From a virus, in the IMG/VR virus record IMGVR_UViG_3300025598_000199, positions 1 to 22,024 of that record: a stretch of 22,024 nucleotides of DNA. One strand, given 5' to 3'. The translations under genes were made by a program, and so were the position numbers. The notes beneath the pieces are model-generated. The model was not told where the DNA came from and did not search any database. It saw nothing but the letters and a program-made list of their open reading frames with translations. Below, piece by piece: positions 4,109 to 19,512 of the stretch (position 1 is its first letter; every line of letters begins with the position of its first letter).

Positions 4109-4423
4109 TTAAAACCCTTTATGTTTTGGATTTTTGTGCTCGCCACTGGTAATTTTGCAATCATCTAAATCAATTTTTCCGCCTGATTTCATACGACGTT
4201 TGCCTGTTGAATCCAAAATATGATGGTTATACCCACCATACTCATTGTCACGTTTGTCACGCGAGCGTCGCGCACCTTGTAAAGTACCTGCCTTACCGAC
4301 AGTCTCACCCGTGCGTTTACTGATTATTGAAAAAGGAGCGCCTTCGTTCTTGTCTTTTTCTTTGTTGTAAACAGGAGCATCTGACTCTGCTTGGTACCAA
4401 TCGACATTAGGTTTGACTGCCAT
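4109..4423 (-). CDS. Small basic protein of unknown function
   Basis: I do not recognise this 104-residue protein. It is very polar, with many Lys, Arg, Asp and Glu and no hydrophobic segment. A central part reads SIISKRTGETVGKAGTLQGA, which could be a short beta hairpin plus helix, followed by an RRSRDKRD basic run. The C-terminal third has K-S-G-G-K-I, one of the basic Gly-Gly motifs scattered in this cluster, and one cysteine. Two adjacent ATGs exist (4426 and 4423); the second is chosen because GGAG lies six bases upstream rather than three. Position between the DUF6321-type gene and the adaptor suggests a minor virion or assembly component, but nothing in the sequence proves it. Confidence 0.6.
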   Translation of the reverse strand: MAVKPNVDWYQAESDAPVYNKEKDKNEGAPFSIISKRTGETVGKAGTLQGARRSRDKRDNEYGGYNHHILDSTGKRRMKSGGKIDLDDCKITSGEHKNPKHKGF

Positions 4424-4435
4424 CATTTACTCCAA

Positions 4436-4957
4436 TTACCAGCCGGGACATTTCCAACGTTTTAATGATGCTTTTGCCCTTGGAGCATCACCACTTGCAT
4501 GTTTAACAACACCTGACATTCTCGCGCAAAAACTGTCTTTGCGCGAACCGCCTTCAGGTTGTGGTGCCTTCAAGTGCGATCCTGTTTCTCGATTGTATTT
4601 TGCTCGACCTTTTTCTGTAAGTCCTGCCCCTTGTTCTGTAGGTTTTTTCTCACCTCGCCCAACAGCGAGAGAAACTCCACCATCTTTCTTGCGAACAGTT
4701 TTAGCAGATTCCACAAAAGCTTGAGCACTGGGAGCGCCCTTGCTGCCAGGCTTGCGCATATGTTCTTTAGATCCATGTTTAATCCTTTCTTGCTTTGCGT
4801 GGATATTGGCATAAAGACCGCCGCCAGACTTAAATTTCTCGCCTGTATCGGCATGCACAAATTCTTTACCAACTTTTTGCGGAACACCACCCACACCACC
4901 TTTGGTATGGGCAGCTGCTTCCATCAATCTATGTTGAGCGGGTGATTTACTTGGCAT
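4436..4957 (-). CDS. DUF6321-like phage protein
   Basis: This 173-residue basic protein has two recognisable ends. The N-terminus (KSPAQHRLMEAAAH, then GGVGGVPQKVGKEFVHAD, about residues 4-36) matches a short motif often seen at the start of small phage structural-cluster proteins. The C-terminal part (about 112-173: GLTEKGRAKYNRETGSHLKAP, then SRKDSFCARMSG and the end RWKCPGW with C144 and C170) matches what I remember of the DUF6321 family, whose function is unknown. Between them are two basic Gly-Gly motifs (K-F-K-S-G-G and K-K-D-G-G-V). The gene starts two bases after the stop of the 888-residue gene and has only a weak AGG-type ribosome site, so coupling is likely. Overlapping frames on both strands are shadows. 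Confidence 0.65.
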   Translation of the reverse strand: MPSKSPAQHRLMEAAAHTKGGVGGVPQKVGKEFVHADTGEKFKSGGGLYANIHAKQERIKHGSKEHMRKPGSKGAPSAQAFVESAKTVRKKDGGVSLAVGRGEKKPTEQGAGLTEKGRAKYNRETGSHLKAPQPEGGSRKDSFCARMSGVVKHASGDAPRAKASLKRWKCPGW

Positions 4958-4959
4958 GA

Positions 4960-7626
4960 TTAAGCCTGCGATTCTTGCCAGCTCAAACGAGCCAGTATGG
5001 TGGAAGCGGTTGCAGCAGTATTGGTTGCGACAACATACAAGATGTCTGGGCCATCAGGATATTGTCCCGCATAACTTGTTGGCACCGTGTTTGTTAAACC
5101 GCCGCCTAAGATTGCGTTTCCAATACCTGCCACAGAAGTCAGATCCAAAGTCGTTTGACCTGAGCTATTTGTGAAAGCCGCTGCAATTGATTCACCACCC
5201 GTAAACGTTGCAGTGGTTGATGTTTGTGAAGCCACCTGGACAATAGAGCTCGTGACCGTATTGTTTTGAGTAGGCGAAGCAAACGAAGTCCAACTTGGCG
5301 AGCCACCGTTGGTGTACCCGTTCAGATTTAACTGAATCAGAAAAGTGCCGGAAGTCACCACGCCCAACTCGCGCAGTTGTAGCTGCAAACGATTGATAAC
5401 TTCTTTGTTTCCGAGTATGCCCGTTTGACCGTTATCAACCGAAGGCGCTACGCGAATTGCCAAGATAGGCACTGTTGAATTTCCAGGGACGTTTACAGCA
5501 GAAGTTGTACCGTAGTTATAAATCAACGATACGTCTTGACTAAACCCGCCGTCCATCACAACCGACGAACCCCAATGCGAGATAACCGCTACTGAATCAG
5601 GGGGTGCATACTCAATTGACACTGGTGGAATAGCATTAGAAGCTGGGAATGCCGCGGTAAATGCCGAAGCAACACCGCCGCCCGTTGCGCCACGAGTGCA
5701 ACCTGTGAACTGGTCGTATGCCAAACCCGACTGCGCTGCTGTGGTAATGCCTGTGTAGGTAATGTACTCGATGACACCACCACTCGCCGCTGCGGTAACC
5801 TTGAGCGTACCGCCTGCAGGGTTAAACCCAGCCGAGCTGACTACTGGAATCGTAGTGACGCCACTTGTGATTGAGGCGTATAAATTGGTGATTGCCCCCT
5901 GACCGTTTGACTCATAACGCGAAGGTAAATTACCTGAGCGCATGTAGGCTTGGTATTGAATGTTATTGCTTTGGAAAGCATAAACGTACGCAATAGCGCC
6001 ACCTGTGGTGCGCAAACCAAAACGTGCAACACCTGCACCGTACCATGAGTAGTCAATAAACCACATTTGGTTCTTGGTAAGGTCGAGCGTGTAACCCGAT
6101 GGGCCAGTCCCATCTAAAGGGTCATACCATTGAGATTGTGGTATTTTTTGGTCGATGGTTTTTGATACAAGAGCATTTGCAATTGTTTGCCCACGATATT
6201 CTGGGCTGATAAAAAGCGAAGTATCGCTTGCAACACTCATCACCCGGTATGACTGACCGCGGATTACAAGGTAGTCGCCTGGACTCACTTGATTAGTAAA
6301 CACAGTACCAGTTCCGGTAACAGTACCATTACCTTGAGTGACTGACACCGTACCGCTCAATTGATTTACTGAATTGCGCCAAACCGCATACATTGTTTGT
6401 CCATCAAATTGAAAGAACAAACCATTTTGTGCATCGAAGAATCCAAGTTTATTGCTTGATCCATACCAAGAATAAGGGCTAACGCTTACTGGCAAACCAG
6501 TGCTAGTAAGCGCAGGGCTTGAGCTCGGGATAATTCCATTTGCCGTTACATAAGTAAGTGTTGTGGCTGACGGTACAGAAGCCACTTTAAAAATACCGTT
6601 GTAAGCCGCTACCGAGGCTGTTGTAACTTGAATAAAAGAATTGACTGTCATGTTGTGCGCCCAACGGGTCGTCACAGTCACAGTTGTATTTGACCCGTTA
6701 TTTGTTACCGAAGTCACAAATAAACGTGGTTTCATGATCGAACCAGTCGAAAATTGAATACCTTTTCCAGACTGGTAGCGGAAATAACGCCGCGTCTGGC
6801 GCATCATTTGCTGATTTGGTACCGCAGAACCAGCAGTAAAGTTGACCGAGCCATCATAAGCTCGAGTCTCAACATAACCAGATGGACGTGCATAAACGTT
6901 AGTTTGTACGTTACCGCTTGACCCCGAAGTGGTAACGGTTCCAGACGCGCCTGTTGTCGCAATCGTAAATTGTGTTGAGGTTGGGACGGTGGCAACTACC
7001 CAAGCACCATTGACACCCGTGCCGCCTGTTGTGCCAACAATGAAAACCAAAGAACTTACAGACAGACCATGTGGAAATGCAGTATTAACTGTAATTGCAG
7101 TGCCGCTAGTCACAATCGCTGTAGTGCTTGCAGCCGCAACCGCAAAACCCGCATTGGTATAAAAATTCCCTGCATAAACGTAAGTAGCAGCAGCGTTGTA
7201 TTGGTTACCAGTGGCAACCACGTTGGTAGTGACAATCGTAAATGAAGTACCGCCAGTAGAGGCCGTGACGTACCACCAGCCGTTTGCGTTGGTATCCAGG
7301 CAATCCTCTAAGAACACAGGAGTTCCAATAGCAACCGTAGCGGTTGTTGAAACTACTACCGTGGTCGTGCCGTTGCCTGTGACAGCAGTAACGGGGATAG
7401 GTGCGTTTTGGTTGTACCAGCAGGACTGACGATTGTTCTCAAGGTCGAGCTGCTCCCACTTGCTCGGCTGCTGACCATACTCGAAGTCTGTATCAATCAG
7501 CGATTGTGGAGTAGACACCCGCAACTTATCAACAGGATCATACGCTGCAGAGCGTTGCGCTTGTTGAATTCGTAACTGATTATCCGAGTTGGATGTCGGG
7601 CCTGTATAAACGGACAATTCTGACAT
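4960..7626 (-). CDS. Large modular virion structural protein
   Basis: The 888-residue protein begins with a family signature at about 30-60 (DKLRVSTPQSLIDTDFEYG), and later YFRYQSGKGIQFSTGS, FIDYSWYGAGVARFGLRT and AYMRSGNLPSRYE. I associate this set with structural proteins of marine T4-like cyanophages and related phages. Into that backbone are inserted beta-rich modules: three similar to E1_FCCH-type units (about 77-138, 168-227, 304-365), each ending N-G-x-(W/F)-x-V-x-x-V/T-x-x-T-x-(F/L)-T; one GTVSVTQGNGTVTGTGTVF unit (about 423-490); and one SAGFNPAGGTLKV...FTGCTRGATG unit (about 584-660). No catalytic motif is visible. ATG 7626 follows AAAGGA. It probably forms part of the tail, baseplate or head surface; the exact site is unknown. 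Confidence 0.75.
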   Translation of the reverse strand: MSELSVYTGPTSNSDNQLRIQQAQRSAAYDPVDKLRVSTPQSLIDTDFEYGQQPSKWEQLDLENNRQSCWYNQNAPIPVTAVTGNGTTTVVVSTTATVAIGTPVFLEDCLDTNANGWWYVTASTGGTSFTIVTTNVVATGNQYNAAATYVYAGNFYTNAGFAVAAASTTAIVTSGTAITVNTAFPHGLSVSSLVFIVGTTGGTGVNGAWVVATVPTSTQFTIATTGASGTVTTSGSSGNVQTNVYARPSGYVETRAYDGSVNFTAGSAVPNQQMMRQTRRYFRYQSGKGIQFSTGSIMKPRLFVTSVTNNGSNTTVTVTTRWAHNMTVNSFIQVTTASVAAYNGIFKVASVPSATTLTYVTANGIIPSSSPALTSTGLPVSVSPYSWYGSSNKLGFFDAQNGLFFQFDGQTMYAVWRNSVNQLSGTVSVTQGNGTVTGTGTVFTNQVSPGDYLVIRGQSYRVMSVASDTSLFISPEYRGQTIANALVSKTIDQKIPQSQWYDPLDGTGPSGYTLDLTKNQMWFIDYSWYGAGVARFGLRTTGGAIAYVYAFQSNNIQYQAYMRSGNLPSRYESNGQGAITNLYASITSGVTTIPVVSSAGFNPAGGTLKVTAAASGGVIEYITYTGITTAAQSGLAYDQFTGCTRGATGGGVASAFTAAFPASNAIPPVSIEYAPPDSVAVISHWGSSVVMDGGFSQDVSLIYNYGTTSAVNVPGNSTVPILAIRVAPSVDNGQTGILGNKEVINRLQLQLRELGVVTSGTFLIQLNLNGYTNGGSPSWTSFASPTQNNTVTSSIVQVASQTSTTATFTGGESIAAAFTNSSGQTTLDLTSVAGIGNAILGGGLTNTVPTSYAGQYPDGPDILYVVATNTAATASTILARLSWQESQA
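5647..7398 (-). repeat. Array of inserted beta modules encoded within the 888-residue structural gene
   Basis: The segment encodes five small beta modules interrupting the conserved backbone. Three (DNA about 7213-7398, 6946-7125 and 6532-6717) are diverged copies of one another, each about 60 residues, with a Thr/Val-rich strand, a G-x-x-V turn, an N-G-x-W/F/A tract and a final T-x-F/L-T strand. Two others, about 6157-6366 and 5647-5877, belong to different module types that are common in phage structural proteins. The similarity is at protein level; DNA identity is low by eye, so the copies are old or independently acquired. Boundaries are approximate. Confidence 0.55.
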
Positions 7627-7645
7627 TATTCTTTCCTTTGAAAGG

Positions 7646-7665
7646 AGGGGAGCCGTAGCCCCCCT
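7646..7665 (-). promoter_or_regulatory. Intercistronic hairpin with a C(UACG)G tetraloop
   Basis: Read on the minus strand the 20 bases AGGGGGGCTACGGCTCCCCT fold into an 8-pair stem (one G-U pair) closed by a UACG loop with C-G closing pair, the exceptionally stable UNCG type. It lies nine bases after the stop of the repeat-protein gene and 19 bases before the 888-residue gene. No run of T follows, so it is not a standard intrinsic terminator. mRNA processing, 3'-end protection or translational insulation are more likely. The fold is directly readable; the role is inferred. Confidence 0.6.
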
Positions 7666-7674
7666 GACCTATTA

Positions 7675-9354
7675 TTACTTCATTGAACCACCACGTCGAC
7701 GAGCAGGTACTGAAGGTGTGCCTCTAATTTTCTCTTTCAAGTAATCCACACCTTGCATTACCTTTCTTGGAACATACATCAAAGCGTCGTCTACCATTTT
7801 TGAATCAGCTAAGTTTTCAGCTTTTTCACGATCGTAGTAACCTTGATACGCACGGTTCAATTGCTCTGTTGAATACTCAGGCTCTTTAGGTTGCCTTTTC
7901 ATACTACCTACGCCATCTCCCTCACTAAAGTGGTGAACGTTTCCACCACGTTTGTAAGTTCCAGATTGCAAGGTATTTGCCACAGGTGGGTGTTTAACGC
8001 GCATAGGCATCTTTACAGATTTGCCCATGTCATTAACATTCCCCCCCGTGGCGTAGGCTTTTTTTGAGGTTTTACCCCCATGCTTATAACCGCCAGCATT
8101 AGCAAGTTTCACAATACCAGTGGTGGTATGTGATTTGCCTTTTGGCGTGGAATTAGCAGGACGATTTTCCCAATTGCCACCTTCAACAGTATTGCGGGTG
8201 TCATACTTATCAATTGCGCCACCATCTGCTTTGTGGTGCATCTTGGCTTTGCCACCATGTTTAAAACCACCTGCATTGCTCATTGACACGCCACCAGTGG
8301 CTCTTGAGCCGCTGAACGGACGTGCGCTGTGCATGTCGGTGTTTTCGTAATAGTGTTCATTACCTTCAATCGTGCCACCCATTTCGCTTTTACCGCGGGT
8401 TTCACTTTCGTTGGTTTCGCTAGGAATTGAGCTACCAGTAGCGCGACCACCTGCAGCATAGTGATGTTTAGCTTTTCCACCGTGCTTATAGCCACCCTTG
8501 TTGCCAAGATTAACTTTTCCGGTTTTGCCACTGGTGTGATCCATGTGTTCGCCATCATTCATCATGTGAACATAGGGCGCAACACTTTTCTTAACCGTTG
8601 TTTTGGTCATATCTGAATCAATTTCACCACCACTGGCGTACTTACCACCTTTGCACATTGCCTTGTGGTGCTCACACATCTTTTTGTGATGTGCTGAACC
8701 ACCTTCTTTGTGCATCTTAGCGTGGTGTTTAGCCATATGCTTGTGATGTTCCAACGAACCCTCTGGATGACCAGAAATGCGATGGACTTTACCGCCGTGC
8801 GCCATGTGCTCATGGTGCATACGACCACCATGCGCTTTATGAGCCATACCGCCATGCTCACTATCCTTCATTGATTCATGATGATGAAGTTCTTTTTCAA
8901 GCTTCTCGATCATCTTGTGGTCAGCAGATCCACCTTTTTTCATGCCCAACAAGGCTTTTTTAACCATTGCGGCGCGCATGGCTTGCTTCGCAGGTGCCAT
9001 ATTAGCAATCGCAGCAGGACTCATTGCGCGATTAACCGTAGGCATACCTTCACCAACACCTGTCATGCCAGGCATTGCACCACCCATACCTTTGTGAGCA
9101 ACTTTTCCACCCTTAGCATACAGGTTGGGGTTCATCGCTTTCATACGATGCATCATGGATGGCTTTTTAGGGCTGCTACCAGCTTCTGATTCAAAAGCGT
9201 GATGCGCGCCATGCATGTGATGCATTTCCATCGGTTTGTGACCACTTTCGTGACCACCTTTTGCATGATGTTTTACTTTGCCGCCCTTTTTTAGCTTCAA
9301 GCTTACACCGGGCTCATCCGTGTACATCTTTACCATCGGTTTAAATTCAGACAT
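7675..9354 (-). CDS. Lys/Gly/His/Met-rich repeat protein of unknown function
   Basis: This 559-residue protein is extremely biased. Residues 1-240 are packed with His, Met, Lys and Gly-Gly (HHMHGAHH, MHHEHMAHGG, HHKKMCEHHKAMCKGG). Its only cysteines, near 227 and 234, sit in a C-E-H-H-K-A-M-C cluster that could bind metal. A helix at about 105-160 (AAIANMAPAKQAMRAAMVKK, then EKLEKELHHHE) is the only ordinary-looking part. Residues about 246-440 hold three diverged repeats centred on G-G-Y/F-K-H-G-G-K. The C-terminal 75 residues (YSTEQLNRAYQGYYDREKAE onward) are more globular, ending RRRGGSMK. No signal peptide or membrane segment is visible. ATG 9354 follows AGGAGGG, an excellent ribosome site, suggesting strong expression. 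Virion, DNA-binding or metal-binding roles are inference; I know no defined family. Confidence 0.7.
   Translation of the reverse strand: MSEFKPMVKMYTDEPGVSLKLKKGGKVKHHAKGGHESGHKPMEMHHMHGAHHAFESEAGSSPKKPSMMHRMKAMNPNLYAKGGKVAHKGMGGAMPGMTGVGEGMPTVNRAMSPAAIANMAPAKQAMRAAMVKKALLGMKKGGSADHKMIEKLEKELHHHESMKDSEHGGMAHKAHGGRMHHEHMAHGGKVHRISGHPEGSLEHHKHMAKHHAKMHKEGGSAHHKKMCEHHKAMCKGGKYASGGEIDSDMTKTTVKKSVAPYVHMMNDGEHMDHTSGKTGKVNLGNKGGYKHGGKAKHHYAAGGRATGSSIPSETNESETRGKSEMGGTIEGNEHYYENTDMHSARPFSGSRATGGVSMSNAGGFKHGGKAKMHHKADGGAIDKYDTRNTVEGGNWENRPANSTPKGKSHTTTGIVKLANAGGYKHGGKTSKKAYATGGNVNDMGKSVKMPMRVKHPPVANTLQSGTYKRGGNVHHFSEGDGVGSMKRQPKEPEYSTEQLNRAYQGYYDREKAENLADSKMVDDALMYVPRKVMQGVDYLKEKIRGTPSVPARRRGGSMK
8035..8520 (-). 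repeat. Three diverged repeats encoding the GG(Y/F)KHGGK core
   Basis: Within the 559-residue protein, cores start at residues about 279, 355 and 413. They share G-x-V/I-x-L/M-x-N-A/K-G-G-Y/F-K-H-G-G-K followed within 8-12 residues by an A-x-G-G motif (YAAGGRA, KADGGAI, YATGGNV). Spacings are 76 and 58 residues, so linkers vary while cores are kept. This pattern suggests selection on the core rather than recent duplication. On the plus strand the reverse complement of the core is visible three times as a recurring CCACC-GCTTATA/TTTAAA-CC type string. Confidence 0.7.
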
Positions 9355-9366
9355 GATGCCCTCCTA

Positions 9367-10611
9367 TTAAGCTTGGTTCACGCCAAGAGTGCCTTGGCGC
9401 GTAGAGTTGGGGCCAGAACCAATAGCAGGAATGGCAATCGCCATTACCAATCGTTTGGTTCCATCAGTAGCACTAGATGGGATATAAGTGCCTCGAACAT
9501 CACCTGTTGACGATGTTGCAGGGTTAGTCATATCTGCTTTAACCCATGTACCTGCGTCGTAACCTGCTGTGTTGTTCCAACCTGCATTAACGATATAGGC
9601 ACCATCAATTGCACGAACAGGCAAACCAAGCACATCAGTTGTACCTACAGTCAAGGCTGTACCTGTAGCACCACCAATAGCGATTGAGGTGATTTGGTAA
9701 AACGCTTTGGTTGTATTAACCGCAGTAGATACAGCAGAACTAGTGGTAATTGCTTGAGTCATTGCTTGACCGTAGTAATCGTAACCACTGATAGTTGCTG
9801 TCTGAGGAGCTACACCTAATGTGTAAGTCAAACCAGTTGGTGTGCCTGCTGTTGTGACTACTGCAGCACCTGCCGTGGTAGTTAAAGTAGCTGTGGTAGC
9901 TGTAACTGCCGTCAGAATATAGGTCGTTGGGTTTGAATATCCAGTGATTGTTCCCGTGCCACCCAAAGTACCAGAAATTGTCAAATATTGACCTGACACT
10001 AAACCAGTTTGTGAGGTGTAAGAAATCTGACCACCAGTGCCAGTAATAGCAACACCTGCTAATGTTGCAGCGGCTGCAGTACCAGTTGTGATGCTAAGAG
10101 CACGAGGAATATCCAATTGAATAACTGTCGTACCATCAGTGCGAACTACAGACTTGGCAGAAGTGCCTGCTGTTAATGTCAGATTGCCTGCGGATGCAGG
10201 AGTTTGTGATGCGGCAATATTAGCCGTTTGTTTTGTCTGTGGAATCGTATCCCACATGTAAACGCGACCTAACGGGCCAACACCCAAAGACATCGGTGAT
10301 GGATCGCCAAGCAATGCGTTACCTGATGCATACATCGTTACTGCGGATGAAACAGTCGATGATTGCGACAAAGTATATTGATTTAAACCATTAGCATTTT
10401 GTCCTAGTGATGCGGTGATGTAACTGTTAGCAGTTACGCCAGAACCTGAAATATATTGACCGACAACCAAAGGATCGCCTGATTGAACAGTTGCGACAGT
10501 TAAAGTTGTAGTTGAAATAGTACCTGTAACGACCGAAGTTGCGGCTTGGTTACCAGTACCCATATAGGTTGCGCCTGAACCTAAAAACAGGTCATCTGAA
10601 AATAAAGGCAT
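9367..10611 (-). CDS. Virion structural protein following the major capsid gene, possibly decoration or head fibre
   Basis: The 414-residue protein has a conserved-looking backbone, with PMSLGVGPLGRVYMWDTIPQ at about 106-125, DIPRALSI at about 167-174 and YDYYGQAMTQAI at about 277-288. It is interrupted by two Thr/Ala/Gly-rich beta insertions. The first spans about 24-95; the second, about 190-265, contains SGQYLTISGTLGGTGTITGY and resembles the E1_FCCH-like modules of the 888-residue protein. Proteins with this backbone commonly follow capsid genes in phages, hence the call. ATG 10611 has AAGGAG upstream. It lies directly downstream of the intrinsic terminator after the capsid gene, so it should be expressed below the capsid protein by readthrough, unless it has its own promoter, which I could not find. 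Confidence 0.65.
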   Translation of the reverse strand: MPLFSDDLFLGSGATYMGTGNQAATSVVTGTISTTTLTVATVQSGDPLVVGQYISGSGVTANSYITASLGQNANGLNQYTLSQSSTVSSAVTMYASGNALLGDPSPMSLGVGPLGRVYMWDTIPQTKQTANIAASQTPASAGNLTLTAGTSAKSVVRTDGTTVIQLDIPRALSITTGTAAAATLAGVAITGTGGQISYTSQTGLVSGQYLTISGTLGGTGTITGYSNPTTYILTAVTATTATLTTTAGAAVVTTAGTPTGLTYTLGVAPQTATISGYDYYGQAMTQAITTSSAVSTAVNTTKAFYQITSIAIGGATGTALTVGTTDVLGLPVRAIDGAYIVNAGWNNTAGYDAGTWVKADMTNPATSSTGDVRGTYIPSSATDGTKRLVMAIAIPAIGSGPNSTRQGTLGVNQA

Positions 10612-10649
10612 TTTGTCTGCTCCTTGAAAAGTTTGACAAAAAACAATTT

Positions 10650-10679
10650 AAAAAAGGGTCGGTTTTTTACGCCGACCCT
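10650..10679 (-). terminator. Rho-independent terminator after the major capsid gene
   Basis: On the minus strand AGGGTCGG, a 9-base loop, and CCGACCCT form a perfect 8-pair GC-rich stem, immediately followed by TTTTTT. This is the canonical intrinsic terminator form. It begins six bases after the capsid stop codon and 38 bases before the next start codon, so it can set a high ratio of capsid mRNA over downstream structural mRNA. Confidence 0.88.
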
Positions 10680-10684
10680 ATTAC

Positions 10685-11599
10685 TTACACGCCAGGCGTA
10701 CCGTAAGCAGCGCGTGGGTCAGTAAAGCCCACAGCGTAACGCTCAGTAGCCTTGTAACGCATTGTGTCAGTCTCAAAGTCACCTTCCATGGTTTTCTCAA
10801 GACGACGACGCATCAGTAGCTTAAAGCCTTCTGGAGCGTCGGTCTGAACCCACCAAGCGGTCGATGAAGTCAAACGTGACAGAACAGCAGCACCCTCGTC
10901 AAGCAAACCGATAGATTTGATTGGGTTGATGTCGTTGTTTGCATTACCAGTACGCAATACTGATTTCAACAAAACTTCGGCTTGGAAAATGTTGCCTGGA
11001 GCCACGATCAATTGACGTGGTACCAAACGGATTTTCTTACCGTTGTTGTCTACAGCTTGACGAATCTGAATCAACATCTGCTCGAGCGATGTTTGCGACA
11101 AAACCGCGGCAGTAGCCAACTGGTTGCTGAAAGTGCCGTTGACGATTGGGTGCGCTGTACTAATCAGCGACACGCCATCACCACCTGGGTAAGCACTGTT
11201 GAATGCGAAGTTCAACACGTTTGCTGACAACAATTCTTTGGTTTCCACCAAAGACTGTGCCAAGTGACGTGCGTAAACCTGACCCAAACGAATATGGTCG
11301 CCGTCTTCAACGAGAACCTTAGTCAGTGCAAAGGCCAAGCCATACACTTTGTAGAGGTAACGTTGCAAGAACAGAACACCACCTTGCTGATACGTTACTG
11401 GCGTACCGTCAGGAAGTTGTGGTGCGGCACCAAATCCGTACAGGACTGGTTCTTCATGGTAATTCCTTGGAATACCATCTTCTTCGCGGAAAACGCGTGA
11501 CCATTCGTCAGCGCGTTGATCATAAACACCGTCGAAACATTCGTTGAGAATTGGCTCAACAATCGAACGGAAGTCAGTACTTCTCATTGGAGCAGCCAT
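10685..11599 (-). CDS. Major capsid protein, HK97-fold type
   Basis: This 304-residue protein has the length and layout of small HK97-fold coat proteins. An N-terminal helix-rich arm (about 1-45) is followed by an E-loop-like region. Further on come STAHPIVNGTFSNQL (about 147-161), SLEQMLIQIRQAVDNNGKKI (spine-like helix, about 171-190), PRQLIVAPG, and a C-terminal part with WWVQTDAPEGFKLLMRRRLE and YAVGFTDPRAAYG. The D-A-P-E-G-F-K and Y-x-V-G-F-x-D-P-R signatures recur in phage coat proteins I recognise. ATG 11599 follows AAGGGG at good spacing. It is preceded by scaffold and decoration-like genes and followed by a strong terminator, as expected for the most abundant virion protein. No cleaved N-terminal propeptide site or dedicated protease gene is evident, so assembly may rely on the separate scaffold. 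Confidence 0.88.
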   Translation of the reverse strand: MAAPMRSTDFRSIVEPILNECFDGVYDQRADEWSRVFREEDGIPRNYHEEPVLYGFGAAPQLPDGTPVTYQQGGVLFLQRYLYKVYGLAFALTKVLVEDGDHIRLGQVYARHLAQSLVETKELLSANVLNFAFNSAYPGGDGVSLISTAHPIVNGTFSNQLATAAVLSQTSLEQMLIQIRQAVDNNGKKIRLVPRQLIVAPGNIFQAEVLLKSVLRTGNANNDINPIKSIGLLDEGAAVLSRLTSSTAWWVQTDAPEGFKLLMRRRLEKTMEGDFETDTMRYKATERYAVGFTDPRAAYGTPGV

Positions 11600-11610
11600 G
11601 TTTTAGCCCC

Positions 11611-12210
11611 TTATGCAATTGCCGTCACAGATCCGAAGAACTGTGACTGAGCGTTAACAACTTGAACAACTGTATAGGCATCACCCCATGCATTGTCCAC
11701 CCCTTGAGCTAAATTCACCACGCGCATCTGACCTTGGACACCGTTACCAGCAGCAGTAGCGGAGCCTAAAGTGGCTTGCGACAGACCTGTGGTAGTAGAA
11801 CCATTGGTGACGTTTGTGAAGTTGTACTCGTTACCGATCGTGGTTTGAGCCATCGAACCATCAGCTTGAATTTCGTAAACGATGTTTTGGTCGTTGTAGA
11901 AATAAGCAACACATGAGCCTGTAGTATAGGCAGTGTTTGCAGGCCAGTAGTTCGATACGCGACGACGACCAGTAGTGTCAGTCCACTCAACGCCCGAAAA
12001 CGCGCCAGACCAAGCAACTGCTGAGCCTGATGCGGGGTTGGTTGTCAGAGGGATGATCACGCCGTTCGATGCCGAATAAGCAACGGGTTGACCTTTTAAG
12101 ATATTATTTGCATAACCTGAAGTAATACCGCCAGCTAACGCCTGAGCGCGATCCAATCCGGATGGGTGGTACGCAGGGCGCAAGCCAAACGGAGCATTTG
12201 TCGTAGACAT
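11611..12210 (-). CDS. Putative capsid decoration/structural protein
   Basis: The 199-residue protein begins NAPFGLRPAYHPSGLDRAQA and contains GAFSGVEWTDTTGRRRVSNYW (about 68-88), AYFYNDQNIVYEIQADGSMA (about 101-120) and, near its end, NLAQGVDNAWGDAYTVVQV. I associate this combination with small beta-rich phage proteins encoded just upstream of coat genes and usually annotated as structural. Composition (Ala, Gly, Thr, Asn, few Lys) fits an exposed virion subunit such as a cement protein. ATG 12210 has TAGGAG upstream. The gene is separated from the capsid gene by 11 bases. A head-vertex or head-surface role is inferred from position. Confidence 0.65.
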   Translation of the reverse strand: MSTTNAPFGLRPAYHPSGLDRAQALAGGITSGYANNILKGQPVAYSASNGVIIPLTTNPASGSAVAWSGAFSGVEWTDTTGRRRVSNYWPANTAYTTGSCVAYFYNDQNIVYEIQADGSMAQTTIGNEYNFTNVTNGSTTTGLSQATLGSATAAGNGVQGQMRVVNLAQGVDNAWGDAYTVVQVVNAQSQFFGSVTAIA

Positions 12211-12225
12211 AAATCTCTCCTAAAT

Positions 12226-12774
12226 TTAGCCCGAAAATACGGGCATTTTGTTTGGTTGCCGTTCAATAGAGCCCAGCCCTTCACCTTCAACACTGATCAG
12301 CGGACGACCGTTGCTATCTCGAGCCCCTTGTACGTTTTCCATTTGAATCTTGACTTTTTCTGCTTCTTCACGAGGTAAGTCGTGATGCATATGAGTCATA
12401 ACATCAACAAAAACATCCATTGGGATCTTAAACAGTAACATTTCGTTACATGATACATAGCCAACATGTTCACCTGACTTCACGCGATAATCGGCATAAT
12501 CTCCGGGTAACTCTTCAGACTTAACTGGAACGTACCCTAAGCGAATCCGCTTATCGATGCTATCGTAACTGTTGGTTGTTGAAAGCCAGCAAAGGTGCCA
12601 CCCGTCAATCTCGGGCAACTTGGGCAATGCTGATTGCGTCCACTCTTCGCTCCACATTTTTTTACGTTCCTGCGTCGAAATGAACTTTTCTTGTGGCGCT
12701 TCATGAGAAGACTCCCCGTTCGAGCGGTCTTGTCTTCCACTGGCGTTTAAAGATTTTTTGAGACGTGATTCCAT
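12226..12774 (-). CDS. Conserved phage protein of unknown function in the capsid gene cluster
   Basis: I chose ATG 12774 (182 residues, MESRLKK...) because AAGGGG sits eight bases upstream. Longer options (TTG 12822, ATG 12816) lack a ribosome site and would overlap the scaffold gene. The N-terminal 45 residues are polar and likely disordered. The core from about 49 carries WTQSALPKLPEIDGWHLCWL, TTNSYDSIDKRIRLGYVPV and HVGYVSCNEMLLFKIP, which read like a compact alpha/beta domain with two cysteines. The region QQ-free C-terminus includes a helix rich in Glu and Lys (LPREEAEKVKIQMENVQGA). I have seen this type of sequence in phage head clusters without an assigned role. It may be a minor capsid or assembly factor. 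Confidence 0.6.
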   Translation of the reverse strand: MESRLKKSLNASGRQDRSNGESSHEAPQEKFISTQERKKMWSEEWTQSALPKLPEIDGWHLCWLSTTNSYDSIDKRIRLGYVPVKSEELPGDYADYRVKSGEHVGYVSCNEMLLFKIPMDVFVDVMTHMHHDLPREEAEKVKIQMENVQGARDSNGRPLISVEGEGLGSIERQPNKMPVFSG

Positions 12775-12790
12775 AATGTATTCCCCTTGG

Positions 12791-13765
12791 TTAGCTGTTT
12801 CGGTTCTGTCTGTCATAAGCAATGAAGTTTTTAATCATCTTTGCTTTACGAACTGGGTTGTCCCAGGCACCCGCATCCTTCATGGCTTTCACCCGATCTG
12901 GTGAAAGCACAAATTGGGTTCTATTAGAACCACCGTATGCGGCTGAGGCTTCCCTTCCTGAACTTCCCACAACATTCCTTGGTCGTCTGACACTACGGGA
13001 ATCGTCATCATTGTCACTATTGTACCGATGAGGTAATTCTTTTTGCAAACGGCTATCAAACTCTTCCCAATAATCACTATCGGCAGGATTCCAGCCTTGA
13101 TTAGCCATGATTTCATCAACACGTTTTGCAATCTTGCTATCTGAATCACCAAGGTTTGCGTCATACCATGGATTACGTTGAATCCATTGCTGTGCTTGGC
13201 GCGCGACTTGCGGATCTTGCCTCTGTTGCGCGGGTTGTTTCAATTCACGATCGGCTTGATTGCGCAATTGCTTTAATTGACGAATTTCGTCTTGTGCAGC
13301 TTGCCAAATGGTTTGTGCTTCCACAAGACCATTACCATCTTGGTTTTGTGCAGCCTCGGCAACCTTCATTTTTGCCCAATCAAGCTTGGTCTGAGCATCA
13401 TCAATTGCACGATCAACACGATGGATTTGTTGATTTTTACCTTCACGTTCGACATCATTCAAACGACGCCTAAACTCTTCGTTTTCGCGTTGTAACTGCT
13501 GTAAACGAACGTCTTTTTCTTGATTTGTCTTACGAATTAAATCTTTTTTTGCGCGACGACGATTACGTTTAGCCGCGCGCACTTCTTCATTGTCATCAGG
13601 ATGGTCGTTATCACCATCTGCAGACACCTCACCACCGTCTTTGGCGCGCTCAAACCCATTTTGCTCTTCGTTTTCTTCTTCGATTAGCATGTTGTCTGGC
13701 ATTTCAACTACGGCAGAGCCATCTTGCGACTCAATAACTTCTAATTCTTTATCGGTATCAGCCAC
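12791..13765 (-). CDS. Probable scaffolding (capsid assembly) protein
   Basis: This 324-residue, highly charged protein has the profile of a scaffold: an acidic disordered N-terminus, a long predicted coiled-coil at about 60-175 (RRRAKKDLIRKTNQEKDVRL onward, many Q, E, K and R), and a basic C-terminal end (AGAWDNPVRKAKMIKNFIAY) that could contact coat. Residues 15-24 are DGSAVVEMPD, repeated twice in the portal N-terminus. Translation starts at GTG 13765 with TTAGGAG upstream and overlaps the end of the co-chaperonin gene by eight bases. Position between portal and major capsid genes supports the call. No protease motif is visible, so the scaffold is either released intact or cleaved by a host or distant enzyme. 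Confidence 0.75.
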   Translation of the reverse strand: MADTDKELEVIESQDGSAVVEMPDNMLIEEENEEQNGFERAKDGGEVSADGDNDHPDDNEEVRAAKRNRRRAKKDLIRKTNQEKDVRLQQLQRENEEFRRRLNDVEREGKNQQIHRVDRAIDDAQTKLDWAKMKVAEAAQNQDGNGLVEAQTIWQAAQDEIRQLKQLRNQADRELKQPAQQRQDPQVARQAQQWIQRNPWYDANLGDSDSKIAKRVDEIMANQGWNPADSDYWEEFDSRLQKELPHRYNSDNDDDSRSVRRPRNVVGSSGREASAAYGGSNRTQFVLSPDRVKAMKDAGAWDNPVRKAKMIKNFIAYDRQNRNS

Positions 13766-14237
13766 GTTTAACTCCTAAGAATGTATTGAACGACAGAGGA
13801 TTGTCAGTAATCTCTGAGATCAACTCGTGATCATTAAACATGGCGAATAAAACAGGGTTACCTTCTTTTTCGCCGGGTGCTAAACGCTCCCATCGATCAC
13901 CACCCCATCGAGGAACACGAACATAATCACCGATTTGAGCCCAGGCACCTTCTTTCCATGGCTCCATCGTGTCACGATTACGAAATGCGAGTGGCCCGAT
14001 CGCAATTAACTTGCCAACCTGGTTGTTCCACTTCTCATTTTCTTTGGTTTCTTTAACGATGTGAATGATGTCACTCACTGTGTCCGCGGTGCGTAATAGC
14101 TGCACTAAGACTCGACCACCATATGGGCGTTGACCCGGTGATACTTCAGGAAATGCCCAAGCCAATTTTTTTGGGTCGGGCATATCTGATTTGCTATCCA
14201 TTACTTGAATGGGTTCTTTTGCTAAGTACTCTGACAT
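13758..14237 (-). CDS. GroES-like co-chaperonin (Cpn10 fold)
   Basis: The 159-residue protein aligns by eye with GroES in order: PYGGRVLVQLL (about 38-48, GroES start strand), a mobile-loop candidate at about 51-72 with SDIIHIV, NQVGKLIAIGPLAF (about 72-85), a W-E-G region, IGDYVRVPRWGGDRW (about 102-116), and FAMFNDHELISEI (about 131-143, matching the GroES C-terminal strand). It carries a 35-residue N-terminal extension and a longer middle than bacterial GroES. Phages such as T4 encode such proteins (gp31) to change GroEL chamber use for coat folding. Here it sits between portal and scaffold, consistent with capsid folding. ATG 14237 follows TTGGAG. The GroEL partner role is inferred. Confidence 0.8.
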   Translation of the reverse strand: MSEYLAKEPIQVMDSKSDMPDPKKLAWAFPEVSPGQRPYGGRVLVQLLRTADTVSDIIHIVKETKENEKWNNQVGKLIAIGPLAFRNRDTMEPWKEGAWAQIGDYVRVPRWGGDRWERLAPGEKEGNPVLFAMFNDHELISEITDNPLSFNTFLGVKRG

Positions 14238-14272
14238 TTAAATCTCCAACACCATATCTCAGGTGCATAAAC

Positions 14273-14286
14273 GCGCTTTGCAGCGC
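14273..14286 (-). promoter_or_regulatory. Short GNRA-type hairpin between a small gene and the co-chaperonin gene
   Basis: On the minus strand GCGCTGCAAAGCGC forms a perfect 5-pair stem with a GCAA loop, a stable GNRA tetraloop. It lies in the 53-base gap upstream of the GroES-like gene, four bases after the previous stop. No T-run follows, so termination is unlikely; RNA stability or processing is more plausible. The fold is seen, the function inferred. Confidence 0.45.
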
Positions 14287-14290
14287 AGGA

Positions 14291-14470
14291 TTAAGTTTTA
14301 CTCTCTTCCTCGTCCAACATATTGTCGATGGTGTCAAAAACAAACTGGATGCCTTGATACTCACCAACCATCCTTTGGTACGCGTCCCACGTCATAGGCG
14401 TCCCTTGTGCAAGGGCTACCTGTAACTCTGTTTGTCGAATTTTCATTCTATGAATGAGTTGTTCGATCAT
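14291..14470 (-). CDS. Small helical protein of unknown function
   Basis: This 59-residue frame begins ATG 14470 and ends TAA 14291. Its start overlaps the stop of the preceding small gene as ATGA, implying coupled translation. The protein (MIEQLIHRMKIRQTELQVAL..., then TPMTWDAYQRMVGEYQG, a helix and an acidic D-E-E-E end) is predicted to be two or three amphipathic helices. The T-W-x-x-Y-x-R-x-V-G-E-Y-x-G element is one I have seen in short proteins near portal genes of other phages, always without a function. A portal-associated or assembly accessory role is only positional inference. It is shorter than the usual 60-residue cutoff and easily missed. Confidence 0.65.
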   Translation of the reverse strand: MIEQLIHRMKIRQTELQVALAQGTPMTWDAYQRMVGEYQGIQFVFDTIDNMLDEEESKT

Positions 14471-14637
14471 TTACTTTTCTTGCCAGAATGATGGGCTAAA
14501 CCACCCATTTTCTTTGACTCAGAATGCTCTTTGCCGCCCTTTGCTTGCAAACTTGTACCGTCAAGCTTTGCACCTTGAGCTAAACGAGTGTGGTATTTAA
14601 CGTCAATACCTTGTTGTTCTTTATCCGATGTTGCCAT
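14467..14637 (-). CDS. Small basic protein with Gly-Gly motifs, unknown function
   Basis: This 56-residue frame starts at ATG 14637, inside the last 17 bases of the portal gene, with a very good AAGGAG site eight bases upstream, and stops at 14467. The protein is basic and contains A-K-G-G-K at about 32-36, K-K-M-G-G-L at about 43-48, then HHSGKKSK at the end. These are the same kind of Gly-Gly and His motifs that dominate the 559-residue protein. It has no hydrophobic segment. The portal overlap and strong ribosome site suggest it is made in notable amounts next to the portal. Function unknown. Confidence 0.68.
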   Translation of the reverse strand: MATSDKEQQGIDVKYHTRLAQGAKLDGTSLQAKGGKEHSESKKMGGLAHHSGKKSK

Positions 14638-17077
14638 TTGGAGCTCCTTGTTGTGGTGCGGCAGGTGCCGCGGGGTTTACAGGTGGAACCTGTGGTTGAG
14701 CTTGAGCAATCTGCTGGATCGTCTCATGCGTTAACTTTGCATTCTCAATAGCAATTTTGGTTTGGTTATCAACCAAAGATTTTTTGGAATCCGTTTCCAA
14801 TTTTGCTTGAGCCAATTGCACATCTGCTTGATCTTTCTGTGCTTTACGTTGTGTTTCAGCCTGACTTGTTTGCAATACCACTTGGGCTTCTGGTGGCATA
14901 GGTGGTGGCTGAGGCTGGCTACGTTGTTGTGCCATTTGAATAAGTTTTTGGAACGATGGTGCAAATGAACCAAAGACTTCATTCACATCCATCATTACGT
15001 GCGCGCCAACGGTCGTAAATACTTTATCAATCTCCGGCGTGTAATTCGGATTGTCGTAGTCATCAATCGGTTTGCCAGTCGCATCTTCAACGTATCCATT
15101 AGAACGGTTCAAGTACCACAACGTCATGTGTTGCTTCAAATGCTCAATCAAATTGTTCAAGTAGTTAGGATCTGCAAATGGCGATTGCCCTAAGAATGGA
15201 TTCATCGCAAATTGCAAATGATCTTGAATGTGCGCAATTTGATCTTGTTGGATATATGCATACGCTGCTTGACCAATCAACATGGCAGCGTTTTCATCCG
15301 CGGACGTGCGTTGCTCTGGCGCTGGTACGTCATTCATGATGTCGTTGATGTTAGGCACCTTCATTTGCTTAAGCAATCTTGAGATGACTTTGCCCATCTT
15401 GAACTGATCAGGGAACTGTGTTGCCAACTGCAACACTGCCTGAGATTGCGCCATGCGCTGCGTCTCAGAAAAAATGTGGGGATCAGATACTGGTTCCACA
15501 TCCGTGTTCTTTGCAAAGTCTTCACGCGTGACTTCTAAATTTGTCACAACGTCGTTTTTTTGCATATCGTCAAAATACCAACGATTCAAACGACAAAGAA
15601 TTTTTAATACTCGAGCTTGGCTTGCATGCAGGCGCGCATGGATAGATGAATAAACTTGCGAACCCTGCTCAATTAAAGCCTGTGTGGTGCCTACAGGCGA
15701 GTTTGCCGACACGTCTGCTATCTTCTCTTCAGCAGTGGTCACAACGCTCTTTGTAGCCTTATCCAAGAAGCCTAAGAGCTCAAATAGCACTTGGCTTGGT
15801 GGATTAAAAGGCATAGGCATTGCAATCTGGCGAATATCTTGTACGCCAGGCGCGCCTTCGATCTCTACAATTTGGGTGACATCAACTTGTTGCGATTGCC
15901 CAGATATCTTTGCACCCTTGAGCTTAAGCATAGTAGCGGCGTTATTGATATGAGCACTATCCAATAAAGCGCGCAAAGAACCAGTAAGAGCGGCAGACAA
16001 ACCACCGATCAAGTGAGGTAGACCAATTGCATACGCACCTCGCCAAGGGATAAATTTAAATTCCACAACCCAATCAAGTTTGGTCATGGTTTCATCATGC
16101 TCTTCCCAATTGCGGTACAACCCAACTACTTCCCGATCTAATACGTCAATCATCAAGATATAGGGGGCGCTTTTTCCGCGAGTCTTTTTGTCCTCTTCTA
16201 ACTCGAGCCAAGTGTAGATGTGATAAACGGTACGGATTCCATCTTTGTTGTCTTCAAAGACTTTACCCTCAATCTTGTTGTTCGCCTTTGCGACCTTGCC
16301 TTCGTTTAGTGATTCCGTTGCATGGATGTAGTTGATATCACGGTACATCCCAGACTTAATTCGACGATCAAACTCATATTCGGTAATCTCGTGGATCTCA
16401 GCTGCGCGTTGAGCCGTGTAGAAATTGGTTGCAGCAAACGGCAAAATTACCCGGTCAATTGGCAAAAACTCAATGCATGGGCGCTTCTTGTTCTCGTCAT
16501 ACCAAAGCTTCATGTACTGCGAGCCGCCTAGAGGCAACTGGGTTAGAAGTTGCTCTTCTTCGTCCCTAAACTCTTCAATCTGTTCAGTAATCTGCCAATT
16601 TAAAAATTCTGTTTTACGTTCAGCGATTGCTACTTTTTGATCGTCTTGTTTACCAATGATCTTTGACTTAACTGGCCCATCGGGTGGAAAAAGCTCTTTA
16701 ATTGCTCTTGCCGCAAAATCTACGCAACCTTCAGCCATAGCAGGATGGACTACCTTTGACGCACCCATAAAGGTTGCACCACCAGGCGCATCATTTCCCA
16801 TGCCAGTACGTTTAATGCCCTCTTCATACTGCTTATCGCGCAGCTCGCGCGCTTCTTTGTCGCTCTCTAATAAATCAAGATAGCGCACAACCATGTCTGA
16901 CATGGTGTTGAGATCCACCGTATCAGCCAGGTTGTCGTAGAACTCGGGATTGAATTCAGGCCCATCATCCAACTCAACAATAGCCGACCCGTCTGGCTGC
17001 TCTTCCGTTTCAATGTCCGGCATGTCCACCAGCGCAGACCCATCTTCTTGTTCTTGGATATCGAGATCGTCTGCCAT
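14621..17077 (-). CDS. Portal protein
   Basis: The 818-residue protein has the size and features of podovirus-type portal proteins. It contains a helical N-terminal wing with YLDLLESDKEARELRDKQYE (about 66-85), a beta region with KLWYDENKKRPCIEFLPIDR (about 190-210), PHLIGGLSAALTGSLRALLD in the middle, a P-F-N-P-P-S segment, and AEEKIADVSANSPVGTTQAL, a conserved portal element. Residues 12-21 and 29-38 carry two DGSAxV acidic motifs. The end, from about 720, is Pro-rich, then a coiled-coil (about 730-792), then a Pro/Ala/Gln tail. Portals form the dodecameric channel through which terminase packages DNA. ATG 17077 shares one base with the upstream stop and follows AAGGAAAGGG. Neighbouring terminase and scaffold genes support the call. 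Confidence 0.88.
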   Translation of the reverse strand: MADDLDIQEQEDGSALVDMPDIETEEQPDGSAIVELDDGPEFNPEFYDNLADTVDLNTMSDMVVRYLDLLESDKEARELRDKQYEEGIKRTGMGNDAPGGATFMGASKVVHPAMAEGCVDFAARAIKELFPPDGPVKSKIIGKQDDQKVAIAERKTEFLNWQITEQIEEFRDEEEQLLTQLPLGGSQYMKLWYDENKKRPCIEFLPIDRVILPFAATNFYTAQRAAEIHEITEYEFDRRIKSGMYRDINYIHATESLNEGKVAKANNKIEGKVFEDNKDGIRTVYHIYTWLELEEDKKTRGKSAPYILMIDVLDREVVGLYRNWEEHDETMTKLDWVVEFKFIPWRGAYAIGLPHLIGGLSAALTGSLRALLDSAHINNAATMLKLKGAKISGQSQQVDVTQIVEIEGAPGVQDIRQIAMPMPFNPPSQVLFELLGFLDKATKSVVTTAEEKIADVSANSPVGTTQALIEQGSQVYSSIHARLHASQARVLKILCRLNRWYFDDMQKNDVVTNLEVTREDFAKNTDVEPVSDPHIFSETQRMAQSQAVLQLATQFPDQFKMGKVISRLLKQMKVPNINDIMNDVPAPEQRTSADENAAMLIGQAAYAYIQQDQIAHIQDHLQFAMNPFLGQSPFADPNYLNNLIEHLKQHMTLWYLNRSNGYVEDATGKPIDDYDNPNYTPEIDKVFTTVGAHVMMDVNEVFGSFAPSFQKLIQMAQQRSQPQPPPMPPEAQVVLQTSQAETQRKAQKDQADVQLAQAKLETDSKKSLVDNQTKIAIENAKLTHETIQQIAQAQPQVPPVNPAAPAAPQQGAPNGNIG

Positions 17078-19512
17078 TATTTACCCTTTCCTTTTGACAT
17101 CAATTCAATGCGCATCGTATCCACAGTCGTTGGGGGTTTGTACGCAGGATATTCTGTTATGTGCGATTTGTAGTGTTTCTTAATCACATGCTCAGGCATA
17201 TCTTCGATGGATTCGATTCCAATCTTATGCGCGTTGTGCTCTTGCGCATGGAAACTTTGCTCGGGGAATGCCATGTGATCTTCACTTAAATGATGGTGAT
17301 AGATCGATCCACCATCGGCTTTACGCACGATCTTGATTGGCTCTGGTGGTACGTATTCTTTACCAGCAGCAGCAACCTGGGCTTCAGGTGCGTCAATCTC
17401 ATACTCGCCTTTATTTTTCTTGGCGTGAGCTATCTGCTCAGGGCCAACATGGTGAGTGAAAGACGTGTGATGTTGGAATATTGGCGTTGATTTTGTAGGT
17501 GTAGTCATCAATATCGCACCAGCCATCTTACCGTTGCGCGTGACAAACCTGTCTTTAGGTAAGAAATCCTCGTCTTTAAACCGTGAATCCGTTGGGATCA
17601 TGTGCTCAACAGTTTCAGTTTCACCAGTCTCTTTGTTCAGTTTGCGCTCAGGCACATTCACTAAGCGTGGATGCAAAATGTGTTGCTTCTGGTATTCGTA
17701 TCGTTGCCCTTTATGTACGCGATGACCATAGTGACCTTTTGCTTTTGTCGTCGGCTCATGATCGGCACCATAATGCGCTTCGTCGCCCTCAGCCTTCTCT
17801 TCTTTACTGAGCTCTTCCACTGGGCGACCTGTAGACCAATACTTGGCATATTTGATGTGCTTCTGCATTGCCTCATCTTCAGGCGAATCGCGGCGCACGT
17901 TGGTCACCATGTACGAACCCTTGGGCGGCGTTTTGTTTCCTTGCTCGTTTACAAAGTCTTTTCCAGAAGCATTCTGTGCGGTAATGGTTGATCGTACGCG
18001 CTGCTTATCGCGGTCGATGTTCTCACTGATCGACTTGCCTTGTTTAGTCTTTGGCCCAATGTTGGAATGCGTCACATAGTACCCATTCTCAGGATCATGC
18101 AACTCATTGGTCTTGCCGTATGAGTTTGCCACAATGATGGGCTTACCCTCGGCTTTACGCTGATCATTCAATCCTTTAATTACATGGCGCGATGATACGT
18201 CTGTCTCGTCCACCACATTGGGGCGAAACAATGTCCTGATGTTTTTCTTATCTAAATCATTCGATACCTTACGCAATGATCCTGTGTGCGCCAAAATCCA
18301 ATCCTCGGTCATCTTGGGATCATGCTTGGCTTGCTCATGTGCTGCGCGCCGTACCGCGGCATTCACATACTGTTGCTCTGCATTGGGTGCGAAACAAGTA
18401 CCTTTGCTTGTGTCAACGATTCCATTCTTATCCACACCACCCGAGCACCCGACTGTAGCGCCTGGGCAGGTATTAATTGCATGATGCTTGGAATCGTTTC
18501 CATGCCCAGACGTATACAACGAATGCCCAGCAACGCCTTTTGACGCAAACCCTTCGTAGGTTCTACCTTCTTCGTCGTGTTCGTGCTTGACCGTATCAAG
18601 CTTCTCACTGGTATCTAACGTGTCAGCGTTTGAGCCAATATGCTTTGCCTTGCGCAGGCGCTCTAATGCAGCCTCTTCGTTTGCGGTCTGTTCGTGGATG
18701 GGCAAACCAAAATGATGATTTAGGATCTTCTTGTGCAGCGATCCAACCTGACCGATAGTCAGTGGGGGGCGGTGCTCACCGCCATACACTTCTGCGCGCG
18801 CTTCATTTAGATCACGCATGCCTTCGACTTTCTTGCCCTGCTTCGGGCCAGTCCCGCCATATGTCTTACCTTCCCACATGTGCCGCGGAACCGTAATTCC
18901 TTTGACGCCACCGAAGCCTTCAGCAGGAATCGTAATCCGCGTTGACTCATCTTCAACTGCACCACCCTTAGCCATGCCTGCAGGCGCGTTCGATGGTGCC
19001 AATGGTGAAGACAACCCCATTGCTTGCATCTTCTGACCCTGTGGCGTCATTGACAACAAGTTAGGCGGTGCGCCCGTTGGTGCTCCGCCCGTGGCTCCAG
19101 TTGGAGCTCCACCCGGCATGATCTGTGGTGCAGGTGCAATCGGTTCACCAGCTTGTGGCTGCTGACCTTGTTGCGGCTGCTGTGTTGGTAATCCACCCTG
19201 AGTTGGGGGCGGAGCTGTCAACTGTTGACCAGGCTGTTGTGCGTTTTGATCTACGCCACCAATAGGCAATCCACCCGAAGTAGCCACGCCACCAACATCT
19301 GGCATGCCTGACTTGCTCGCATTGGGATTCATGAATACCTTTGGATGCATATCCAAGGCTTCTTCCACGCCGATGTCATCCATCACATCAGGGTTGGCAT
19401 GCTTTGCGACTTCCATGCGATATTGCGATAACAATGGTTGATCCATGGTCTGTCCTTGTACGTTGCCACCATCGGCTTTCTTTTGCATAAAGTGCTGGTT
19501 TGGCTTTTTCAT
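17077..19512 (-). CDS. Large multidomain protein with a possible GP88-like cysteine domain, unknown function
   Basis: This 811-residue protein has several parts. Residues 1-60 include KKADGGNV and an EVAKHANPDVMDDIG helix. Residues about 75-180 are a Pro/Gln/Gly-rich linker. Residues about 190-300 are a charged region with GITVPRHMWEGK. Residues about 345-490 hold NTCPGATVGC (C349, C356), GTCFAP (C373), EDWILAHTG, IRTLFRPNVVDETD and NSYGKTNELHDPENGYYVTH. The CPGA-x3-C start followed by a later C-F/Y-A resembles the GP88 family of phage proteins, but this is a weak match. The rest is polar, with KADGGSI near 731-737 and His clusters. It sits between terminase and portal. Start ATG 19512 has AGGAT upstream at rather long spacing. 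A virion or ejected protein is one idea; an enzyme is another. Confidence 0.6.
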   Translation of the reverse strand: MKKPNQHFMQKKADGGNVQGQTMDQPLLSQYRMEVAKHANPDVMDDIGVEEALDMHPKVFMNPNASKSGMPDVGGVATSGGLPIGGVDQNAQQPGQQLTAPPPTQGGLPTQQPQQGQQPQAGEPIAPAPQIMPGGAPTGATGGAPTGAPPNLLSMTPQGQKMQAMGLSSPLAPSNAPAGMAKGGAVEDESTRITIPAEGFGGVKGITVPRHMWEGKTYGGTGPKQGKKVEGMRDLNEARAEVYGGEHRPPLTIGQVGSLHKKILNHHFGLPIHEQTANEEAALERLRKAKHIGSNADTLDTSEKLDTVKHEHDEEGRTYEGFASKGVAGHSLYTSGHGNDSKHHAINTCPGATVGCSGGVDKNGIVDTSKGTCFAPNAEQQYVNAAVRRAAHEQAKHDPKMTEDWILAHTGSLRKVSNDLDKKNIRTLFRPNVVDETDVSSRHVIKGLNDQRKAEGKPIIVANSYGKTNELHDPENGYYVTHSNIGPKTKQGKSISENIDRDKQRVRSTITAQNASGKDFVNEQGNKTPPKGSYMVTNVRRDSPEDEAMQKHIKYAKYWSTGRPVEELSKEEKAEGDEAHYGADHEPTTKAKGHYGHRVHKGQRYEYQKQHILHPRLVNVPERKLNKETGETETVEHMIPTDSRFKDEDFLPKDRFVTRNGKMAGAILMTTPTKSTPIFQHHTSFTHHVGPEQIAHAKKNKGEYEIDAPEAQVAAAGKEYVPPEPIKIVRKADGGSIYHHHLSEDHMAFPEQSFHAQEHNAHKIGIESIEDMPEHVIKKHYKSHITEYPAYKPPTTVDTMRIELMSKGKGK

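Follow-up and report, generated by a model that had tools for sequence, protein, structure and literature searches.

The window, that is, the whole stretch of 22,024 nucleotides analysed here, is a 22-kb linear viral record whose late-gene operon lies on the minus strand. In transcription order the operon encodes the small terminase, large terminase, p811, portal (phrog_1216), a 56-aa and a 59-aa protein, a GroES-like protein, a putative scaffold, p198, p199, the major capsid protein, p414, p559, p888, p173 (DUF6321), p105 and tail proteins, gene position and the annotated relative MW202545 being the grounds for the GroES, scaffold and tail roles. In the phage collection neither p811 nor p559 has any match other than this relative. 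Viral contig scans recovered 140 loci from IMG/VR, and homologue counts are drawn from approximately 200 related loci. The clade that carries the motif described below consists of uncultured freshwater phages, and in the collection of bacterial genomes most of its close matches are MAG contigs that bear the label betaproteobacteria or Burkholderiales, which hints weakly at such a host. The complete relative MW202545 (L142/L180) also encodes a Tad2-like anti-Thoeris domain, a Band_7 protein and a ketoacyl-synthase, and some of its deposited names, e.g. "coronavirus S2 glycoprotein", look like annotation errors. The features of the window that concern us, all on the minus strand, are the following.

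17077-19512, minus strand: p811, modular polyvalent-type protein with a Pfam GP88 core, between large terminase and portal, three Gly-Gly motifs
19459-19479, minus strand: motif 1, KADGGNV, p811 residues 12-18, where relatives have upstream modules
18955-18975, minus strand: motif 2, MAKGGAV, p811 residues 180-186, immediately ahead of the folded core
17302-17322, minus strand: motif 3, KADGGSI, p811 residues 731-737, immediately behind the folded core
17080-17124, minus strand: C-terminal tail of p811, VDTMRIELMSKGKGK, common to other polyvalent proteins of the clade
12791-13765, minus strand: putative scaffold of 324 aa with a single Gly-Gly variant, placed between portal and capsid; matches phrog_28737, of unknown function
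13625-13645, minus strand: AKDGGEV, within the acidic N-terminal linker of the scaffold candidate, at a position that the family conserves
7675-9354, minus strand: p559, a Lys/His/Gly-rich, mostly disordered chain with about 25 Gly-Gly pairs and seven strict motifs
4436-4957, minus strand: 173-aa protein with C-terminal DUF6321; Gly-Gly motif marginal in the window, enriched in homologues
4172-4192, minus strand: MKSGGKI in the 105-aa protein, marginal (p 0.026)

The motif is a seven-residue peptide that can be summarized as [K/Y/M]-[A/K]-x-G-G-x-[V/I] and was scored in the strict form [KYMFLHR][AKSMYTR][^GP]GG.[IVL] against composition-preserving shuffles. There are 13 strict motifs in the whole window compared with 1.03 expected (maximum of 7 in 2000 shuffles), a descriptive count, as the pattern regexes, those for C-terminal tails included, were tuned after the data had been seen. 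Ten of the 13 are found in p811 (3, with 0.11 expected) and p559 (7, with 0.16 expected), for which 0.27 would be expected together, and only these two proteins are far above chance. Single copies occur in the 105-aa protein (0.03 expected) and the 173-aa protein (0.05 expected, p 0.047), both marginal when taken singly, and in the 888-aa protein (0.13 expected). The original prediction named KKADGGNV, AKGGAV and RKADGGSI in the 811-aa protein and HKADGGAI in the 559-aa protein, all of which are present, and it offered Lys/Gly composition as the explanation that would undo it. Composition cannot explain the motif, because the counts in the window far exceed those of the shuffles, with the regex of that prediction (7 versus 0.06) as with the strict one. 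Its figure of at least five carrier proteins is too high: p811 and p559 hold, p105 (described as having 104 residues) and p173 contribute marginal single copies, the 56-aa protein drops out, and the putative scaffold has a copy, conserved in position, that had been overlooked.

The homologue families sharpen this division. Among 65 non-redundant proteins of the p811 family there are 205 strict motifs versus 10.4 expected (maximum of 20 in 100 shuffles), and in the non-redundant homologues of p559 and of the scaffold the figures are 221 versus 3.75 and 10 of 41 versus 0.3, respectively. Homologues of the 173-aa protein have 7 motifs with 0.7 expected, and two homologues of the 105-aa protein have 3. 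The portal, capsid, large and small terminase, GroES, p198, p199, p414, p357 and tail protein families show no marked enrichment and are close to chance. The 56-aa protein fails as a carrier because its Gly-Gly belongs to another conserved tail, xGGLSxAKKK; its copy, AKGGKEH, is not conserved, and 49 homologues hold 1 strict motif where 0.5 is expected. A shared role, which had been proposed together with a common partner, is plausible, the motif being carried by the polyvalent proteins, p559 and the scaffold while nearly all other families are near chance; a receptor, a targeting tag and a cleavage site were put forward as its candidate forms.

The 173-aa protein (4436-4957) consists of an N-terminal SKSPAQHRLMEAAAH segment joined to the C-terminal DUF6321. 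Each segment resembles the termini of various PHROG families, and a match is contained in 460 phage records, mostly of cyanophages; the two segments appear to be portable tags, to which no function is assigned.

On sequence grounds the p811 family would be classed as polyvalent proteins. Relatives of p811 are modular, 750-1843 aa long, with ART-PolyVal, ASCH, LPD23, GNAT or PcfJ domains upstream of a shared GP88 core, and several disparate effector-type domains are combined in one chain (ART-PolyVal, ASCH and GP88 in L038, LPD23 and GP88 in L104, GNAT and GP88 in L099). The only Pfam domain of the window p811 itself is GP88. Its gene sits among virion and late genes, with the large terminase on one side and the portal on the other, an arrangement reported for phage polyvalent proteins, whose genes lie close to those of the virion (Iyer et al. 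2017, PMC5512222). The GP88 core contains a conserved cysteine pattern, CPGxTxGC...C, at residues 340-433. A Foldseek search of the core fold against the PDB gave no match at E<=0.001, and a radical-SAM/TIM-barrel assignment was dropped, the best VIA-align Z of 4.4 being too low to name a function.

Where in these proteins does the motif lie? In an all-versus-all BLAST of the p811 family, a motif is no more than 5 aa away from 17.9% of local alignment ends, compared with 3.1% by circular shift (maximum of 4.8% over 300 shifts), an enrichment at module boundaries of about six-fold, and no motif lies within a domain match in the six family proteins submitted to Pfam scans. AlphaFold2 models the window p811 with one confident domain, residues ~190-725, and places all three motifs in or at the edge of segments with pLDDT<50, bracketing the folded core. 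The first motif Gly is identical in 20/23, 27/28 and 30/30 aligned relatives for motifs 1, 2 and 3, respectively, compared with a median identity of 0.37 in the surrounding disordered columns. Motif positions are thus conserved in homologues, the reverse of the second outcome that would have told against the original prediction.

In p559, for which AlphaFold2 gives a mean pLDDT of 54, most motifs are outside the few helices, and across 32 homologues several Gly-Gly columns never vary, among them those of LKKGGKV, close to the N-terminus, and of the NAGGYKHGG repeat. Searching PHROGs with p559 returned no match, even at E 10. Conservation and predicted disorder together make the motif of p811 and p559 a conserved short peptide within disordered sequence, as is characteristic of short linear motifs. 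The description of p559 as a multivalent hub suits a disordered chain with about 25 Gly-Gly pairs, but its coupling to cargo does not follow: in L010, L024 and L199 a p559-like protein accompanies a polyvalent gene that is poor in motifs or lacks them, and because of these exceptions p559 and the motif-bearing polyvalent proteins appear not to be tightly coupled, a co-occurrence judged on truncated loci.

The flanks of the motif are selective. Strict-type copies have Ala at -2 in 87% and Val at +3 in 72%, and around unfiltered Gly-Gly pairs the same residues are enriched 4.4-fold and 4.3-fold. The position adjoining the Gly-Gly differs in charge by family, often D/E/K in p811 and mostly K/H/T in p559. 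Selection acts on the protein, with no seam at the DNA level, since Gly codon use at the motif is that of the background: copies agree in their Gly codons at 0.42 and 0.36, versus 0.38 expected. Over 30-nt windows around the copies mean identity is 14.7/30, and 0/313 pairs reach 24.

The motif is clade-specific. As a general feature of environmental phages it was rejected, five other complete phages (Eistla, DSL-LC05, MW202483, S28-C3 and S-RIP2) being at or near chance, and as a general feature of polyvalent proteins likewise, the polyvalent-type regions retrieved from phages F116 and Dfl-JY45 lacking it. A more distant related lineage has a Gly-Gly-repeat protein behind its portal, of which a 178-aa form with the motif is encoded just after a distant portal gene in the genomes of two Rhizobium lusitanum strains (L199, 12151-12684; L202, 4824-5354).

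Two other recurrent peptides accompany these genes. The N-termini of the portal (16970-17053) and the putative scaffold (12791-13765) carry [DE]xxDGSAxV, which is present in 120/121 portals, with two copies in the window portal, in 88/89 scaffolds and in 0 of ~2300 other ORFs, and is a strong candidate for a binding peptide common to portal and scaffold. The window p811 ends in DTMRIELMSKGKGK, and many polyvalent proteins of the clade have a tail of the consensus V-x-[HS]-x-N-x-D-T-M-x-L-E-L-x-x-K-K; DTMRLEL-type C-terminal tails are also on the modular polyvalent proteins of L076, L070, L103 and L127. Internal tail copies lie directly behind a Gly-Gly motif, e.g. GMKRGGKVSIS followed by NPDTMMLE, and two alternative C-terminal tails, LxEERPL and FFPKSKE, recur. 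Because tail-bearing bodies have modules in common with the p811 family, the tails travel with modules, which rules them out as tags on wholly unrelated proteins.

What might explain one short peptide at the joints of modular proteins, in a disordered chain and in a scaffold linker? The reading that we tentatively favour, at somewhat less than even probability, is that the Gly-Gly peptide is a short linear docking and hinge motif of injected cargo, which docks a common partner in head assembly. The motif would occupy the disordered linkers that join one module to the next in polyvalent cargo, p559 would be a mostly disordered, partner-like chain with the motif repeated, and the scaffold linker would provide one copy. 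During head assembly the flexible peptide would dock at one common site, inside the capsid, at the portal vertex or on another morphogenetic protein, and modular effectors would thereby be built into the virion; the Gly pair would act as a hinge allowing modules to exit the head one by one. The computed basis of this reading is enrichment, family restriction, position at module boundaries, predicted disorder, conservation and selection at the protein level; the docking itself, its partner and the location in the virion are what we infer. Packaging of p811 and p559 in the virion would agree with gene position and with the literature on polyvalent proteins (PMC5512222). The difference in charge beside the Gly-Gly between the p811 and p559 families weakens the case for a single binding site, and the p559-like proteins that accompany motif-poor polyvalent genes also tell against this reading.

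A Gly-rich, disordered peptide at shuffled boundaries could also be a favoured hinge spread by module shuffling, a neutral flexible linker with no partner, and, as many copies were inherited along with a homologous position, they do not count as independent events. However, neutrality does not sit well with the selective Ala and Val flanks, which are found around unfiltered Gly-Gly pairs too, with the invariant Gly-Gly columns of p559, or with recurrence in the unrelated p559 and scaffold, and the polyvalent-type regions of F116 and Dfl-JY45 manage without the motif; we regard this explanation as rather unlikely. Gly-Gly with small neighbours also resembles known double-glycine sites, and a cut after or between the glycines, exactly between modules, would release the polyvalent modules from one another, either ahead of packaging or once injected. 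Processing of polyvalent proteins is seen in other phages (P1 DdrB), and many of these proteins contain metallopeptidases (PMC5512222). Against cleavage, about 25 sites would shred p559, and a cut at motif 1, just 12 residues into p811, would free almost nothing. Nor is there a maturation protease among 25/28 Pfam families listed for the 55 proteins of MW202545, although divergent ones could escape; the only peptidase-type domains among those listed are a cell-wall M15 and a tail-spike S74. The seven Pfam families of 30 p811-family members likewise include no peptidase, such as the zincin metallopeptidase domain that is common but not universal in phage polyvalent proteins, with the proviso that divergent HEXXH domains could escape detection, and cleavage is, in our estimate, unlikely, a little more so than the neutral linker.

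The basic, His-rich, mostly disordered p559, with its GGYKxGG repeats, suggests another role for Tyr/Lys-Gly-Gly elements, as homotypic stickers or nucleic-acid-binding repeats that self-associate or bind DNA, with p559 forming a head matrix that retains cargo. The p811 family often has acidic residues at -1 (KADGG, YAEGG), which speaks against this, and we consider it improbable. The coincidence of motif and module boundary could also mark a recombination seam, the codons themselves being a hotspot for module exchange, but with background Gly codon identity and no 30-nt pair reaching 24 this is highly improbable.

The docking reading has a parallel in T4, in whose capsid-targeting sequence and prohead protease substrates short peptides are common to otherwise different internal head proteins. 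The T4 peptides are N-terminal and are cleaved by a phage protease, unlike the motif of this clade, which is internal and repeated and for which no protease was found among the Pfam families listed. Similar short F/Y-A-x-G-G-x-V strings occur in the FAxGGxV-type C-terminal segments of tape-measure proteins. The p811 family resembles the polyvalent proteins of phages and conjugative elements (Iyer et al. 2017, PMC5512222) in its ART-PolyVal, LPD23, GNAT and ASCH modules and its late/virion gene setting, but differs in having a single motif that is repeated both at the joints and in another, multi-copy protein; the words "linker" and "glycine" are absent from the main text of that paper. Our literature search, mainly of open-access texts, found no paper on the Gly-Gly motif, nor any proteomic study of virions from the clade. 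Polyvalent proteins are already known, and what was not found in the literature searched, and is apparently new, is a recurrent joint motif shared with a separate multi-copy chain.

In its broadest form, which is speculative and which we doubt more than we credit, one Gly-Gly docking peptide would, as a universal joint, connect the modules of injected polyvalent effectors, with many copies shown on a disordered matrix protein and a further one in the scaffold, and together they would make a general cargo-loading device that accepts new effector modules. The motif bears on how phages select and pack the effector proteins that they inject. As a joint at module boundaries it is a concrete, mutable handle and lets polyvalent proteins be split into modules computationally, and it could serve as a programmable tag to load proteins into capsids. 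The prophage-like relatives in sequenced Rhizobium lusitanum strains, which carry a Gly-Gly-motif protein, may provide a culturable test system.
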